From NCBI GenBank assembly GCA_030583705.1, contig CP129471.1, positions 796,506 through 860,505 of the forward strand: 64,000 nt of DNA, read 5' to 3'. This DNA is from Patescibacteria group bacterium. GTDB lineage: Bacteria; Patescibacteriota; Patescibacteriia; Patescibacteriales; Patescibacteriaceae. Below are positions 31,001-63,730 of the stretch, in pieces; positions within the stretch are counted from its first letter, which is position 1; the number at the start of each line of letters is the position of its first letter. The notes beneath the pieces are model-generated. The model searched no databases, was not told the DNA's origin, and was given only the letters and a program-made list of their open reading frames with translations. Made by a program: the position numbers and the translations under genes.

Positions 31001-31020
31001 TTATTATGATAATTTATTAT

Positions 31021-31080
31021 CTACCCCACCACTAAACACCTCAAATCGTTGAGGTGTTTGCTTGTTTTCTTAGTTTTCAT
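31021..31080 (-). other. 19-codon open frame within repeat A
   Basis: ATG 31078-31080 follows an AAAGAG box and reads MKTKKTSKHLNDLRCLVVG before TAG. The middle is the hairpin itself. In repeat B the matching ATG is AAG, so the frame lacks a start there. It is either a leader peptide or the broken front of a lost prepilin gene. Confidence 0.25.
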
Positions 31081-31196
31081 TATTCTCTTTATATAACATT
31101 ATAGTATAGTTAAGGTTGAAGCTAAAAATACTCTTTTGAAAGGCAACTTATCTATATTATTATAACACCATTTAGAATAAGTTTGTATAACACTTT
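31024..31196. repeat. Direct repeat A, downstream flank of the DGR
   Basis: Similar to 34347-34485 over its length, apart from a ~34-bp extra stretch in this copy. Shared blocks include CCCCAC, the AAACACCTCAA/TTGAGGTGTTT hairpin, TTATTCTC.TTATA.AACAT and ATTTAGAATAA.TTTGT. It begins 20 nt past the RT stop. On the minus strand it is a promoter/leader-like copy with no gene behind it. Confidence 0.65.
31034..31059. terminator. Repeated hairpin in repeat A
   Basis: A perfect 11-bp stem AAACACCTCAA/TTGAGGTGTTT with loop ATCG. Sister copies at 4263 and 34357. Confidence 0.55.
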
Positions 31197-31215: not shown

Positions 31216-32367
31216 TTAAAAATAACCAAGCATTTTAGTGTAATTATCATTAAAGAAGACCCTACCTGAAAAACCTTCACCAATAGCCGAACAAACCTTT
31301 TGTCGGAGCTTAAAGGTATTGTAATGAGAAATTGTTCCAAGATAAGAATTAATTAAACTTAAATTCTTTCTTTTTTGCATAAAAGAATCCAGACTATTTA
31401 AGTCTAAAGTTCTTATTTTTCGATATAAATTGGTCTTTACTCTGGTTCTTAAATATAATCTGTGAGGCTTAATAACACAACCCAAAAAATTAATGCCCTT
31501 ATCCATTGATTGGCAATATATCTTTTTATCGTGGATGTTAATAAGTAAATTTTTAACCAAGTAGTTTTTTAAAACAGGGATCAATTTAAACAAAAAATCC
31601 TTATCTTGATGAACAAAAATCATATCATCCATATATCTGGCGTAAAAGATTCCGGGAAAAGATGACTTTATAAAATGATCAAAATCATTTAAATAAAGAT
31701 TGCCGAAAAGTTGGGAGGTTAAATTACCTATCGGTAAACCTTTGCCAGCTGGAGCATTAAAAAGACTTTTATCCTTCGGCAACCTTTGCCATTTGGCAAG
31801 CCCTCCTTTCCTAAAACAATTATCAACATAATTATGAAAAATTATTTTTTTAAGGGTGTTTAAAAGAAATTTTTTGGTTTCATAGCTAAAGTCTCCACTC
31901 TCTACTAAGGAACAAACTTTTTTGTAAAGTAAAAAACGATCTATGGACATAAAATAGCTCTTTATATCCAGTTTTAAAATATGACAAGGCTGAGTATAAT
32001 TAGCCGAACAAGAACGAATAAAATAATCAGCTCTTTTAATTCCAAAATGAGGCCCCTTGTTTTTCCGGCAAGCATAAGAATCCTTAATAAAACGTCTCTC
32101 GCATAAAGGGTTTAAATAGTTGTAAATGAGGTGATGAACGACCCTATCGCGAAAACCGGAGGCCAAAATTTCCCTTTGTACCGGATAAAAAATTACAAAA
32201 CAAATACTTCTGCCTATTTGATATTGACCGGACAATAAATCTTCGTAAAGTCTTTGTATTTTTCTTTCAAAATCAATCTCAAAATTCAAAGCATTAATAG
32301 TTGAACGCTTATTTTTTCTGGCATCAAAATAGGCCTTATATAAATCTTCCAATGAAAATTTTATCAT
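31216..32367 (-). CDS. DGR reverse transcriptase
   Basis: A 383-residue reverse transcriptase. Catalytic Asp134 lies in ILKLDIKSYF (motif A). GLPIGNLTSQ at 210-219 is the DGR-type form of the motif 4 segment. YMDD is at 245-248 (motif C). There is no maturase or HNH domain, so it is not a group II intron protein. It copies TR RNA into cDNA with errors at adenines, which replaces the VR of the target gene. It is the last gene of a minus-strand set target-avd-TR-RT; a hairpin (32378-32403) separates it from the TR. Confidence 0.95.
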   Translation of the reverse strand: MIKFSLEDLYKAYFDARKNKRSTINALNFEIDFERKIQRLYEDLLSGQYQIGRSICFVIFYPVQREILASGFRDRVVHHLIYNYLNPLCERRFIKDSYACRKNKGPHFGIKRADYFIRSCSANYTQPCHILKLDIKSYFMSIDRFLLYKKVCSLVESGDFSYETKKFLLNTLKKIIFHNYVDNCFRKGGLAKWQRLPKDKSLFNAPAGKGLPIGNLTSQLFGNLYLNDFDHFIKSSFPGIFYARYMDDMIFVHQDKDFLFKLIPVLKNYLVKNLLINIHDKKIYCQSMDKGINFLGCVIKPHRLYLRTRVKTNLYRKIRTLDLNSLDSFMQKRKNLSLINSYLGTISHYNTFKLRQKVCSAIGEGFSGRVFFNDNYTKMLGYF

Positions 32368-32377
32368 AAATTTAAAA

Positions 32378-32403
32378 CGCCGACACAGAATCCCATGTCG
32401 GCG
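32378..32403 (-). promoter_or_regulatory. Hairpin between TR and RT start
   Basis: A perfect 8-bp GC-rich stem CGCCGACA/TGTCGGCG with a 10-nt loop, starting 4 nt past the TR 3' end and ending 10 nt before the RT ATG. It is followed by TTTTAAA on the minus strand. It could prime or protect the TR RNA, or attenuate RT expression. Confidence 0.6.
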
Positions 32404-32407
32404 CTCC

Positions 32408-32586
32408 AGTCCTTAAGGCAACGCACGGTAAAACCGTTAGCCTTATTATTCGTATCACGATTGACCGTAGAATAAGTGGTGTTCAGATTCCGTCTCCAAG
32501 CATTAGTGGAGCTAGACTGCGGGGCTAACCACAAATTGGCATTGCTAGACAGGTTATTAAAAGTACCTCCGGTATCGCGATAGCCG
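32408..32586 (-). repeat. DGR template repeat (TR)
   Basis: 179 bp, aligned without gaps to the VR at 33153-33331: 164 identities and 15 differences. Every difference is at an adenine of the TR coding strand (T as shown). All 15 fall within 11 AAC/AAT codons. The other 24 coding-strand adenines and every C, G and T are unchanged. The first and last 28 bp are identical. It lies in the non-coding stretch between avd and RT. Confidence 0.97.
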
Positions 32587-32682
32587 AGAGCTACGCAAAA
32601 AATAACCGCTTGACTCTTCCATGGCAAGCACCTGTCTCGCCGGGAAATTACAGACCTAATTCCCAAAATGAGGTATAGGGGG

Positions 32683-33087
32683 TTATTGGACTGGAAGGGG
32701 CTCTCTTTTTGCGGCCTTAACCGACAAAAATTCCGGCCCATCAGATGATAAATATTTTTTATGCCAACCAACCAATTGCTTGGAGATGTTTTCCAAAATC
32801 TCATTTATCTCAATAAACTTTTTTAAACTCACCTCTTTAAGATCTTTTAAAACTCTAATATGTATTTTAATAACTTCCAAAATTTCCCTGGCAGTTTCAA
32901 TATTACCGACCTTATTCTTTAAACGATTAGCTTTATAAATACAAATCAAAAGATCCATACATAAATTTTTTAAATTTTGCCCGGAAGTATATCTGCTTTC
33001 CCTGCTTAAATTTTTGGAAAAAATATGTATCTTTATAACAAGATCATAACTTGCTTTATACACAGGTAGATTTGCATAATGATTCAT
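32683..33087 (-). CDS. avd: DGR accessory variability determinant (Avd)
   Basis: 134 residues, basic and all-helical, with the four-helix-bundle pattern of Avd (N-terminal NLPVYKASYDLVIKIHIFS; later REILEVIKIHIRVLKDL). Avd proteins form a pentamer that binds RT and TR RNA and are needed for mutagenic copying. It lies between target and TR, 8 nt from the long post-VR hairpin. The C-terminal ~20 residues extend past the usual end. Confidence 0.9.
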   Translation of the reverse strand: MNHYANLPVYKASYDLVIKIHIFSKNLSRESRYTSGQNLKNLCMDLLICIYKANRLKNKVGNIETAREILEVIKIHIRVLKDLKEVSLKKFIEINEILENISKQLVGWHKKYLSSDGPEFLSVKAAKREPLPVQ

Positions 33088-33094
33088 ATATTTT

Positions 33095-33136
33095 TTTACC
33101 CCGTCCCGCCCGCTACGCGGCCACGGACGGGGTAAA
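33095..33136 (-). promoter_or_regulatory. Hairpin/cruciform just downstream of the VR
   Basis: 12-bp perfect arms TTTACCCCGTCC/GGACGGGGTAAA around an 18-nt loop that itself forms CCGC-TAC-GCGG. It lies 11 nt past the target stop and 16 nt past the VR. There is no T-run, so it is not a normal terminator. In studied phage and bacterial DGRs a hairpin in this place is needed for efficient retrohoming into the VR. Confidence 0.75.
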
Positions 33137-33147
33137 TAATCAAATAA

Positions 33148-34422
33148 CTAAGAGTCCTTAAGGCAACGCACGGTAAAACCGCGAGCCTTAGTATCCGTAT
33201 CACGAGAGACCGTAGAATAAGTGGTGTACAGATCCCGTCTCCAAGCAGCAGTGGAGCTAGACTGCGGGGCTAACCACAAATAGGCAGCGCTAGACAGGTA
33301 ACTAAAAGTACCTCCGGTATCGCGATAGCCGGATAACATAGCTGAAAAACCAACTAAATCATCACCAGCACCAATGCCTGAGCCTTGTCCAACTTTTTTG
33401 AGGGACTTGCCCGCACCTTTAACACCACCAGGATTTCCAGCCGCAGTTCCAGGGGGGTTTTCACTGTCTGCACATCTTTGCCAACCGGTGCCTGAGGTAT
33501 TACAAGCATATTGGGTGACGGTGCTGGCAATTGTCGCTACGGTATATTGTTCCAGTGTATTGAACTCTTGATCTGTAGGGATATGAAATCCATCTGGACA
33601 AATACCTTGATGTGGGGTTTGAATTTGGGCGGAACAGTCTGTGGTATTGCAAGAAGCTGGTAGATTCATAGCTTCAGCCCAAGTATAGAGACCTCCATGG
33701 TTAACAGCTGGAGTAACTCCGCAGTTAGATGCAGTGTTGTTATAGCACCACTTTTCTATGACATTATCATTAGAGGGCATAGTGGCAGCTGAGGCTAACA
33801 TGGTACCTATATTCATATTTTCCTTCATCCAACATTGAGTTCCTGTTTGAACAGTGTTATAGACATTACCATCTAAATCATTAATGGTTTGTCCACATTG
33901 AAATAATCCTGAGGGAGAATATGTGACTGTAGTAAAACCAACAGATGGAGAGTTGCTTGCTTGAGTACCAAGACAGGTGGATATATTATAGCTTTGTCCT
34001 GAGTTTACTTGGGTATAGGTATAATCAGTATTAGGACAACCTCCATCTGTATGAGGAGTAGGGTTATTGGGTACTTTGCCCATATAAAATACTCCACCTT
34101 GTTCCAGAGGTTGTCCTGGAGTAATAGATGAGGGATATTCGTTATTATCTGCATAATATAGCTCTAGAGCATTAGCCATAGCTCTTAGATCATTTAATCT
34201 TTTAGCATCTCTGGCGCTAGCTCTTGAATCACCTAGAGATACTATAACTAAAGTGGATAATACTCCGATAATAGCTATAACTACCAATAATTCTATTAGA
34301 GTAAAGGCCTTTTTATTATATAATATACTATTTAACTTACTACTTGCCCCACTGTTAAACACCTCAAATCGTTGAGGTATTTTATTTTTTTCTTGATTTT
34401 TCTTATTCTCCTTATACAACAT
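33148..34422 (-). CDS. DGR target: type IV prepilin with FISUMP domain, hypervariable C-terminus
   Basis: 424 residues. A prepilin site KA^FTLIELL (Phe40, Glu at +5) precedes a hydrophobic pilin helix (about 40-62). A pilin-like region ends near 175, then a FISUMP domain (about 176-424: DLDGNVYNTVQTGTQCWMKEN, GICPDGFHIPTDQEF, GYRDTGG). The last 60 residues are the VR. The 11 variable residues are 374, 375, 379, 381, 392, 397, 399, 406, 410, 411 and 414. The leader of 39 residues is long and crosses a hairpin repeat; ATG 34420-34422 is the only clear start after the promoter at 34451. It is probably surface-displayed on a pilus as a variable adhesin. Confidence 0.93.
   Translation of the reverse strand: MLYKENKKNQEKNKIPQRFEVFNSGASSKLNSILYNKKAFTLIELLVVIAIIGVLSTLVIVSLGDSRASARDAKRLNDLRAMANALELYYADNNEYPSSITPGQPLEQGGVFYMGKVPNNPTPHTDGGCPNTDYTYTQVNSGQSYNISTCLGTQASNSPSVGFTTVTYSPSGLFQCGQTINDLDGNVYNTVQTGTQCWMKENMNIGTMLASAATMPSNDNVIEKWCYNNTASNCGVTPAVNHGGLYTWAEAMNLPASCNTTDCSAQIQTPHQGICPDGFHIPTDQEFNTLEQYTVATIASTVTQYACNTSGTGWQRCADSENPPGTAAGNPGGVKGAGKSLKKVGQGSGIGAGDDLVGFSAMLSGYRDTGGTFSYLSSAAYLWLAPQSSSTAAWRRDLYTTYSTVSRDTDTKARGFTVRCLKDS
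33153..33331 (-). repeat. DGR variable repeat (VR)
   Basis: 179 bp at the 3' end of the target gene, ending with the last sense codon. Against the TR, 11 Asn codons became Ser, Tyr, Ala, Tyr, Ala, Asp, Tyr, Ser, Asp, Thr and Arg. The unchanged 28 bp at its 3' end (33153-33180) likely serves as the initiation-of-homology anchor. Confidence 0.97.
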
Positions 34423-34485
34423 GATAATATTACAATTTATTTATATTATTATGATAACATTTAGAATAAATTTGTGCAACACTTT
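34347..34485. repeat. Direct repeat B, upstream flank of the DGR
   Basis: Matches repeat A (31024-31196). It fills the space between the DUF805 stop and the target gene and holds the target promoter, an AAGGAG box and the AAACACCTCAA hairpin (34357-34382, one mismatch). Confidence 0.65.
34451..34479 (-). promoter_or_regulatory. Promoter for the DGR target operon
   Basis: Minus strand: TTGCAC (plus 34474-34479), a 17-nt spacer, TATCAT (plus 34451-34456). The expected transcript starts about 22 nt before ATG 34422. An AAGGAG box lies inside the coding frame, after that ATG, which is odd. Confidence 0.5.
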
Positions 34486-62965: not shown

Positions 62966-63730
62966 ATGGGAGGATTTTTCAATACATTTTTTTATGAGCC
63001 GATTTTAAACCTTCTGGTCTTTATTTATAATACCCTACCAGGGTCAGATATCGGCTGGTCAATTGTTATTTTAACAATAGTTATTAAGTTAATATTGTAT
63101 CCATTATCAAAAAAATCAATAGAATCACAAAAAGCCCTACAAGACCTGCAACCAAAAATTGAAGAAATAAAAAGAAAATATAAGGACGATAAAGAGGCTA
63201 TGAGTAAGGCTATGATGGATTTATATAAGACAGAGAAGGTTAACCCTCTTTCTTCTTGTCTGCCATTATTAATTCAATTACCCTTCTTTTGGGCTATTTT
63301 TAGGGTTTTTAATGATGAATTATCTGGCAAAACACTGGATATGATCTACCCCTTTATTGTTAACCCAGGCACCATGAATCCTATCGCCTTTGGTTTTGTT
63401 GATTTTTCTGAAACAAACATTGTTTTGGCTATTTTGGCTGGAGCCTCCCAATATTTCCAAATTAAAATGATGCCCAATAAACCGGCGGCTATTAAAAGCG
63501 AAGGGGCTAAAGATGAGAACATGATGGCTATGATGAATAAGCAAATGCTTTACATTATGCCTGTTTTAACGGTCGTTATTTGTATGACACTGCCCTCGGG
63601 ACTGGCTTTCTATTGGTTTGTCTCAACTATTCTAACCCTAGCGCAACAGTGGTATATATTTAGAAACAACCCTAAAAACAAAGAAAATAGCGGACAGGGC
63701 CAGGTTATTGAAGGTGAAATAATTAAATAA
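62966..63730 (+). CDS. yidC: Membrane insertase YidC/Oxa1
   Basis: 254 residues: five-helix YidC2 core with SDIGWSIVILTIVIKLILYPLS, a coiled-coil loop (QDLQPKIEEIKRKYKDDKEAM), PLLIQLPFFWAIFRV and GLAFYWFVSTILTLAQQWYIF. The Arg/Lys in helix 2 (around IVIK) gives the positive groove charge. It lacks the large periplasmic domain of Gram-negative YidC, as in Gram-positive and CPR forms. It inserts membrane proteins, probably including the many two-helix pilin-like proteins here. Confidence 0.95.
   Translation: MGGFFNTFFYEPILNLLVFIYNTLPGSDIGWSIVILTIVIKLILYPLSKKSIESQKALQDLQPKIEEIKRKYKDDKEAMSKAMMDLYKTEKVNPLSSCLPLLIQLPFFWAIFRVFNDELSGKTLDMIYPFIVNPGTMNPIAFGFVDFSETNIVLAILAGASQYFQIKMMPNKPAAIKSEGAKDENMMAMMNKQMLYIMPVLTVVICMTLPSGLAFYWFVSTILTLAQQWYIFRNNPKNKENSGQGQVIEGEIIK

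Follow-up and report, generated by a model that had tools for sequence, protein, structure and literature searches.

A two-tiered hairpin after the variable repeat of a patescibacterial DGR

How DGRs choose the variable repeat (VR) over the template repeat (TR) is, to our knowledge, unsolved beyond BPP-1. There, stem formation and the sequence of the loop downstream of the VR drive retrohoming (PMC3240598), and this has been confirmed in E. coli (PMC12875486). In the BPP-1 sequence the VR is followed by a 4-nt spacer, and then by a stem around CGGGGCC-GAAA-GGCCCCG. BPP-1 requires a 4-nt GRNA loop. Enlarging the loop by 2 nt nearly abolishes activity (PMC3240598). Without the hairpin, BPP-1 keeps residual activity (PMC3240598, PMC12875486), and the original prediction for the DNA discussed here, that DGRs need a hairpin at the VR, is therefore correct as to efficiency, but too strong as an absolute rule.

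The hairpin that we describe, from a Patescibacteria group bacterium, resembles that of BPP-1 (PMC3240598) in that it is an inverted repeat past the VR, with a G..A loop on the sense strand, and has no counterpart after the TR. It differs in its stems (12 bp plus 4 bp here, a single 8-bp stem in BPP-1), in its loop (a GNA triloop rather than a GRNA tetraloop), in its position (16 nt past the VR for the outer stem and 32 nt for the inner, against a 4-nt spacer), and in the company of a short repetitive array, which does not occur after the VR of BPP-1. The nanoarchaeal DUSEL4 DGR also has hairpins with trinucleotide G-A loops at the VR (PMC4372165), but these are placed within the target gene, and their loops are GRA, whereas ours follows the stop codon, has the loop GTA, and is enclosed in an outer tier. 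Group IIC introns, likewise, are retroelements whose targets are marked by a DNA stem-loop, but for intron insertion rather than VR rewriting (PMC3240598). If DGR target hairpins are defined broadly, as inverted repeats within 4–34 bp 3' of the VR that are not shared by the TR, the present hairpin is one of them; if they are defined strictly after BPP-1 and phages, by a GC-rich stem of 7–10 bp and a 4-nt GRNA loop, it falls outside.

The locus and its hairpin

The window, by which we mean the whole 64,000-nt stretch analysed, contains a locus ordered, on the minus strand, as target gene, VR, hairpin, bAvd, TR and reverse transcriptase (RT; Table 1). The DGR-type RT, the adenine-mismatched TR/VR pair and the Avd-type accessory protein identify it as a DGR. 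The C-terminal part of the target gene, which carries the VR, encodes a Fib_succ_major domain (PF09603, E 6e-27). TR and VR have 15 mismatches, 15 of 15 at TR adenines, and since the two repeats differ at adenines only, the target has probably been rewritten recently. The DGR is intact and apparently active.

Table 1. Features of the DGR locus (window positions)
Feature	Positions	Strand	Description
DGR-type reverse transcriptase	31216–32367	-	RVT_1 match; motifs LPIGNLTSQ, YMDD
Terminator-like hairpin	32373–32408	-	Directly 3' of TR; called by terminator scan
TR (template repeat)	32408–32586	-	Repeat pair with VR
avd (accessory variability determinant)	32683–33087	-	PF22296 bAvd, E 3e-12
A7 tract	33091–33097	- (sense)	Outer edge of hairpin
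Two-tier hairpin, outer tier	33095–33136	-	Perfect 12-bp stem TTTACCCCGTCC/GGACGGGGTAAA, 18-nt loop
Hairpin, inner tier	33110–33120	-	4-bp stem CCGC/GCGG, 3-nt loop; sense CCGC-GTA-GCGG
Short array form	33134–33152	-	Sense CTTAGTTATTTGATTATTT, 3-unit chain at +0, +7, +15
DGR target gene	33148–34422	-	ORF; pilin-like N-terminus, N_methyl PF07963, E 2.9e-7
VR (variable repeat), 3' end of target gene	33153–33331	-	179-nt repeat, 92% identical to TR

Several further sequences touch on this locus and its genome. Just upstream of the TR, 32595–32737 on the minus strand gives a weak match to the Rfam RT-7 RNA (40.6 bits, E 2.6e-7), under the gathering score. Terminator-like hairpins such as the one directly 3' of the TR stand behind many related TRs, too, and perhaps end the TR RNA. 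Behind the RT stands a decayed second copy (31010–31196) of the beginning of the target pilin gene with its leader (34333–34485), and copies related to this leader recur at some ten genomic sites. Regions paralogous to the VR region lie at genome positions (G000:C1) 162025–162202, 365759–365921 and 63169–63329; their mismatches go beyond A, some are followed by sequence like the array discussed below (e.g. CTTAGTTATTGAATTATTTATC), and they are possible former targets. Dispersed palindromes of the form TAAACCCGCCA/TGGCGGGTTTA are present in about ten copies (G000:C1, e.g. 192995, 526141, 534175, 592020 and 671972).

The hairpin had been predicted to lie 16 nt past the VR as a perfect inverted repeat of 12 bp, with a second, 4-bp stem inside its 18-nt loop, and all of this is borne out by the sequence. 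On the + strand its loop reads CGCCCGCTACGCGGCCAC, between the arms TTTACCCCGTCC and GGACGGGGTAAA; the sense strand is the minus strand, on which the inner loop lies at +36 from the VR. The stop codon of the target gene (33148–33150) is inside the 16-nt gap between VR and hairpin, and the avd start codon is just 7 nt beyond the hairpin. As single-stranded DNA, a 62-nt stretch of the sense strand folds with -20.1 kcal/mol (z -5.1; none of 200 shuffles as good). No Rfam family is found at the hairpin in the window, nor at the related VR flanks searched. Across the whole 870-kb genome, a scan for two-tier hairpins whose outer stem has 10 bp or more and whose inner stem has 4 bp or more finds, at the stringency applied, no other.

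Palindromes as such are not rare in this genome: there are 27 perfect stems of at least 10 bp with at least 6 G/C, about ten of them in the TAAACCCGCCA/TGGCGGGTTTA family, so that the hairpin might be a dispersed palindromic repeat, or a GC-rich palindrome that arose by chance. The hairpin lies outside that family, however, and its sequence is single-copy (the inner-tip sequence CCGCGNAGCGG occurs once in the 870 kb, at the hairpin). Nor is its palindrome repeated in related genomes. Chance, for its part, does not explain why the inner tip matches those of RT relatives, described next, in both sequence and position. Of the alternatives weighed in this article, we consider this one the least probable.

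The inner tier in related DGRs

DGR loci for comparison were gathered by RT similarity from related genomes, GTDB genomes and viral contigs; for the GTDB genomes, a single RT protein as query found nothing, and an RT alignment as query gave matches. TR/VR pairs were identified through their adenine-biased mismatches, which yielded 202 distinct VR 3' flanks; as controls we took the 3' flanks of other ORFs (150 aa or longer) at the same loci. Patescibacterial records are present among the RT relatives; the same-genus genomes of the comparison set contain no close DGR relative. We defined a ‘mini-hairpin’ as a GC-rich, perfect stem of at least 4 bp with a loop of 3–4 nt, within 60 nt of the VR; all hairpin calls, here and below, cover perfect stems only. 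Because a MAFFT alignment of the mini-hairpins misplaced their stems, we assessed conservation by comparing counts with those at control gene ends.

Mini-hairpins follow the VR in 30 of the 63 flanks from GTDB genomes (48%), against 21 of 309 control gene ends (7%; p 8e-14, this and all other p-values counting related loci as independent). In the viral set the figures are 22/96 flanks and 64/520 controls (p 0.01), and in the related-genome set, of Patescibacterial DGRs, there is no enrichment (2/43 VR flanks, 12/215 controls). Across all sets, loops of the G..A type are found in 28 of 54 VR hairpins, but in only 7 of 97 control hairpins (p 1e-9). A count that involves no selection on pairing concerns CGNAG sites: all three further flanking pairs are present at 25/46 such sites in VR flanks vs 7/193 in controls (p 2e-15).

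The nearest RT relatives, which belong to Bacteroidetes, Chlorobi and Proteobacteria, have a short hairpin with a C-GNA-G loop at an equal distance from the VR. Among relatives whose RTs are 44–48% identical to that of the window in the matched segment, two loci (L150 and L156) share CCGC-GTA-GCGG exactly with the window; the loop is at 35 and 36 nt from the VR there, and at 36 in the window. Four more (L164, L165, L168 and L176) have CCGC-GAA/GGA-GCGG after the VR. The GNA hairpin of this RT clade—a C-GNA-G tip on a GC stem, about 25–50 nt past the VR and near an A or T tract—is the type to which the hairpin of the window belongs. Comparison with related DGRs, which had been proposed as the check on the element, thus gives a divided answer: the inner 4-bp stem and its GNA loop are conserved, but the stems are not kept in the Patescibacterial relatives. 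The inner tier is thus the DGR target hairpin that is conserved among relatives, and the 12-bp outer stem is an additional tier.

In the near clade, a tract of at least 5 T or A comes within 20 nt after the hairpin in 18 of 20 cases, this locus included, but after only 9 of 96 control hairpins. Twelve of these 18 tracts are of T, and six, among them our own, of A only. A T-run of at least 5 after 12 of the 20 related hairpins gives these a terminator-like look, and the hairpin of the window could, correspondingly, terminate transcription of the target gene, or be the 3'-end hairpin of its mRNA. Hairpins with an A-only tract, this locus included, cannot be intrinsic terminators of the classical kind for the target gene, however. 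Such a terminator has a GC-rich stem and then a U-run on the transcribed strand; here, as in the five other A-only cases, the sense strand has A instead (A7), and on the + strand it is TAATCAAATAA that comes next. The terminator scan does not call the hairpin at 33095–33136, and avd begins merely 7 nt further on. The early observation that there is no T-run, which made a mere terminator unlikely, holds for both strands, and we regard termination as a very unlikely function.

The closeness of avd invites another explanation, in which the hairpin acts at the RNA level, as a leader structure that masks the avd ribosome-binding site or makes avd expression independent of the target gene. The avd ATG is well placed for this, at 7 nt from the end of the hairpin, and the GGGG of the 3' arm could be a Shine-Dalgarno sequence. 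But in several multi-target DGRs (L172, L259, L267, L278 and L299) there is a hairpin behind each VR, although the second target is away from avd, and these hairpins, therefore, belong to the VR and not to avd. What is conserved, moreover, is the GNA tip, at a fixed spacing from the VR. A role in avd expression is, on this evidence, improbable, and we return to recognition of the target as the function of the hairpin.

The outer tier and other tiered hairpins

For the 12-bp outer stem itself, no homologue was found among the DGR loci compared. The original prediction had called the hairpin longer than those published, and two-tiered; there are, indeed, two tiers here where BPP-1 has one, but the arrangement is not unique, and recurs in other DGRs. 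Inner hairpins enclosed by an outer stem of 7 bp or more follow 17 of the 201 other VRs, compared with 17 of 1050 controls (p 3e-6). The closest two-tier analogues are at L184 (8-bp outer stem, 19-nt loop, GCGC-GAA-GCGC) and L205 (9-bp outer stem, 18-nt loop, AGACC-GTCA-GGTCT).

The most elaborate examples occur in a phage/Bacteroidales clade (L266, L274, L293, L297, L242, L255, L245, L262, L221, L280 and L282), where a hairpin of about 60 nt has two to three tiers. Like ours, these hairpins consist of an outer stem, an internal loop and an inner stem downstream of the VR; they differ in their unrelated sequence, their length, their several kinds of inner loop, and in usually having no array. 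A covariance model (R1) built on ten of them added L280 and L282 from outside the building set, together with the near-duplicate L247, and every match that it made was at a DGR locus that had been fetched. In the window it has no match at E <= 0.1, which rules out this locus as a member of the clade. Compensatory changes in both stems, which had been proposed as something to look for, are found in the clade: 9 of 15 pairs have two-sided changes. These amount to 24 cells, where shuffles give 7.1 and none of 500 does as well, and slid controls do not pass the test; the alignment had been fitted to the structure, which favours this result. Rfam has no match at the loci of these hairpins that were tested. 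From their recurrence after VRs and their covariation in this clade, we conclude that tiered hairpins are real, and are selected in DGR targets.

The periodic array and the choice of target

Many VRs are followed by a second feature, an array of T-rich units, [ACT]TTN[AG] on the sense strand, that recur every 8 nt, usually three or four times, starting at the VR end. L040 provides an example, GACTATTTGACTATTTGACTATTTG, and L110 and L259 provide others; in the window the array is of a short form, and its first unit includes the stop codon. Chains of at least three units are present after 77%, 51% and 55% of VRs in the three sets; at the ends of control genes the figures are 13%, 3% and 1%, and after TRs they are 5%, 2% and 1%. 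These fractions rest on a unit pattern picked after looking at the flanks. Autocorrelation of TT at lag 8, which uses no pattern, is 0.18–0.30 with similar flanks removed, vs about -0.02 (sd 0.01–0.02) in controls. Multi-target DGRs have the array behind most of their VRs. The idea that array and hairpin are mutually exclusive is not supported in Patescibacteria (p 1), but strong folding goes with the absence of an array in the other two sets (p 7e-5 and 8e-5).

The literature searched contains no description of the array, and an earlier mention of it, or of the triloop, may exist; the two-tier shape and the repeated 8-nt motif appear to be undescribed. We think it rather probable that the array is a second, undescribed cis-signal of DGRs, found in phages as well as in Patescibacteria, Bacteroidetes and Proteobacteria and seldom after TRs, which accompanies or in part replaces a hairpin that ranges from the GNA type to three tiers, and that the two together separate recipient from donor. 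The array might, speculatively, be a site for protein binding or for unwinding. If there are two such signals, then at this locus the array is reduced and the hairpin elaborated.

As for the hairpin, or cruciform, of the window, we hold with considerable confidence that it is a target-recognition element of a working DGR, most likely a landing mark that shows the machinery which copy to rewrite. Its place, polarity and inner sequence equal those of the hairpins that follow the VRs of RT relatives, where such hairpins are strongly enriched, and the prediction of a DGR target hairpin stands on these grounds. Against it are the lack of enrichment in Patescibacterial DGRs, the inner stem of only 4 bp, the loop of 3 nt where BPP-1 has GRNA, and the mismatch to R1. 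By analogy with BPP-1 (PMC3240598, PMC12875486), we infer that the hairpin would promote retrohoming. To judge from that work, the DNA bordering the VR on its 3' side would extrude as a hairpin or cruciform. The inner CCGC-GTA-GCGG tip may then be the conserved signal for recognition, and the 12-bp outer stem may stabilise the extrusion and hold the adjacent VR end open. The mutagenised, TR-derived cDNA would then enter the VR rather than return to the TR, which, at this locus, has no such hairpin or array.

This locus and its relatives suggest that DGR targets carry two separable signals—a periodic array, and a GNA or tiered hairpin—in a balance that is lineage-specific. Both signals can be tested in existing reconstituted DGR systems, and would broaden the design rules for targeted hypermutation.
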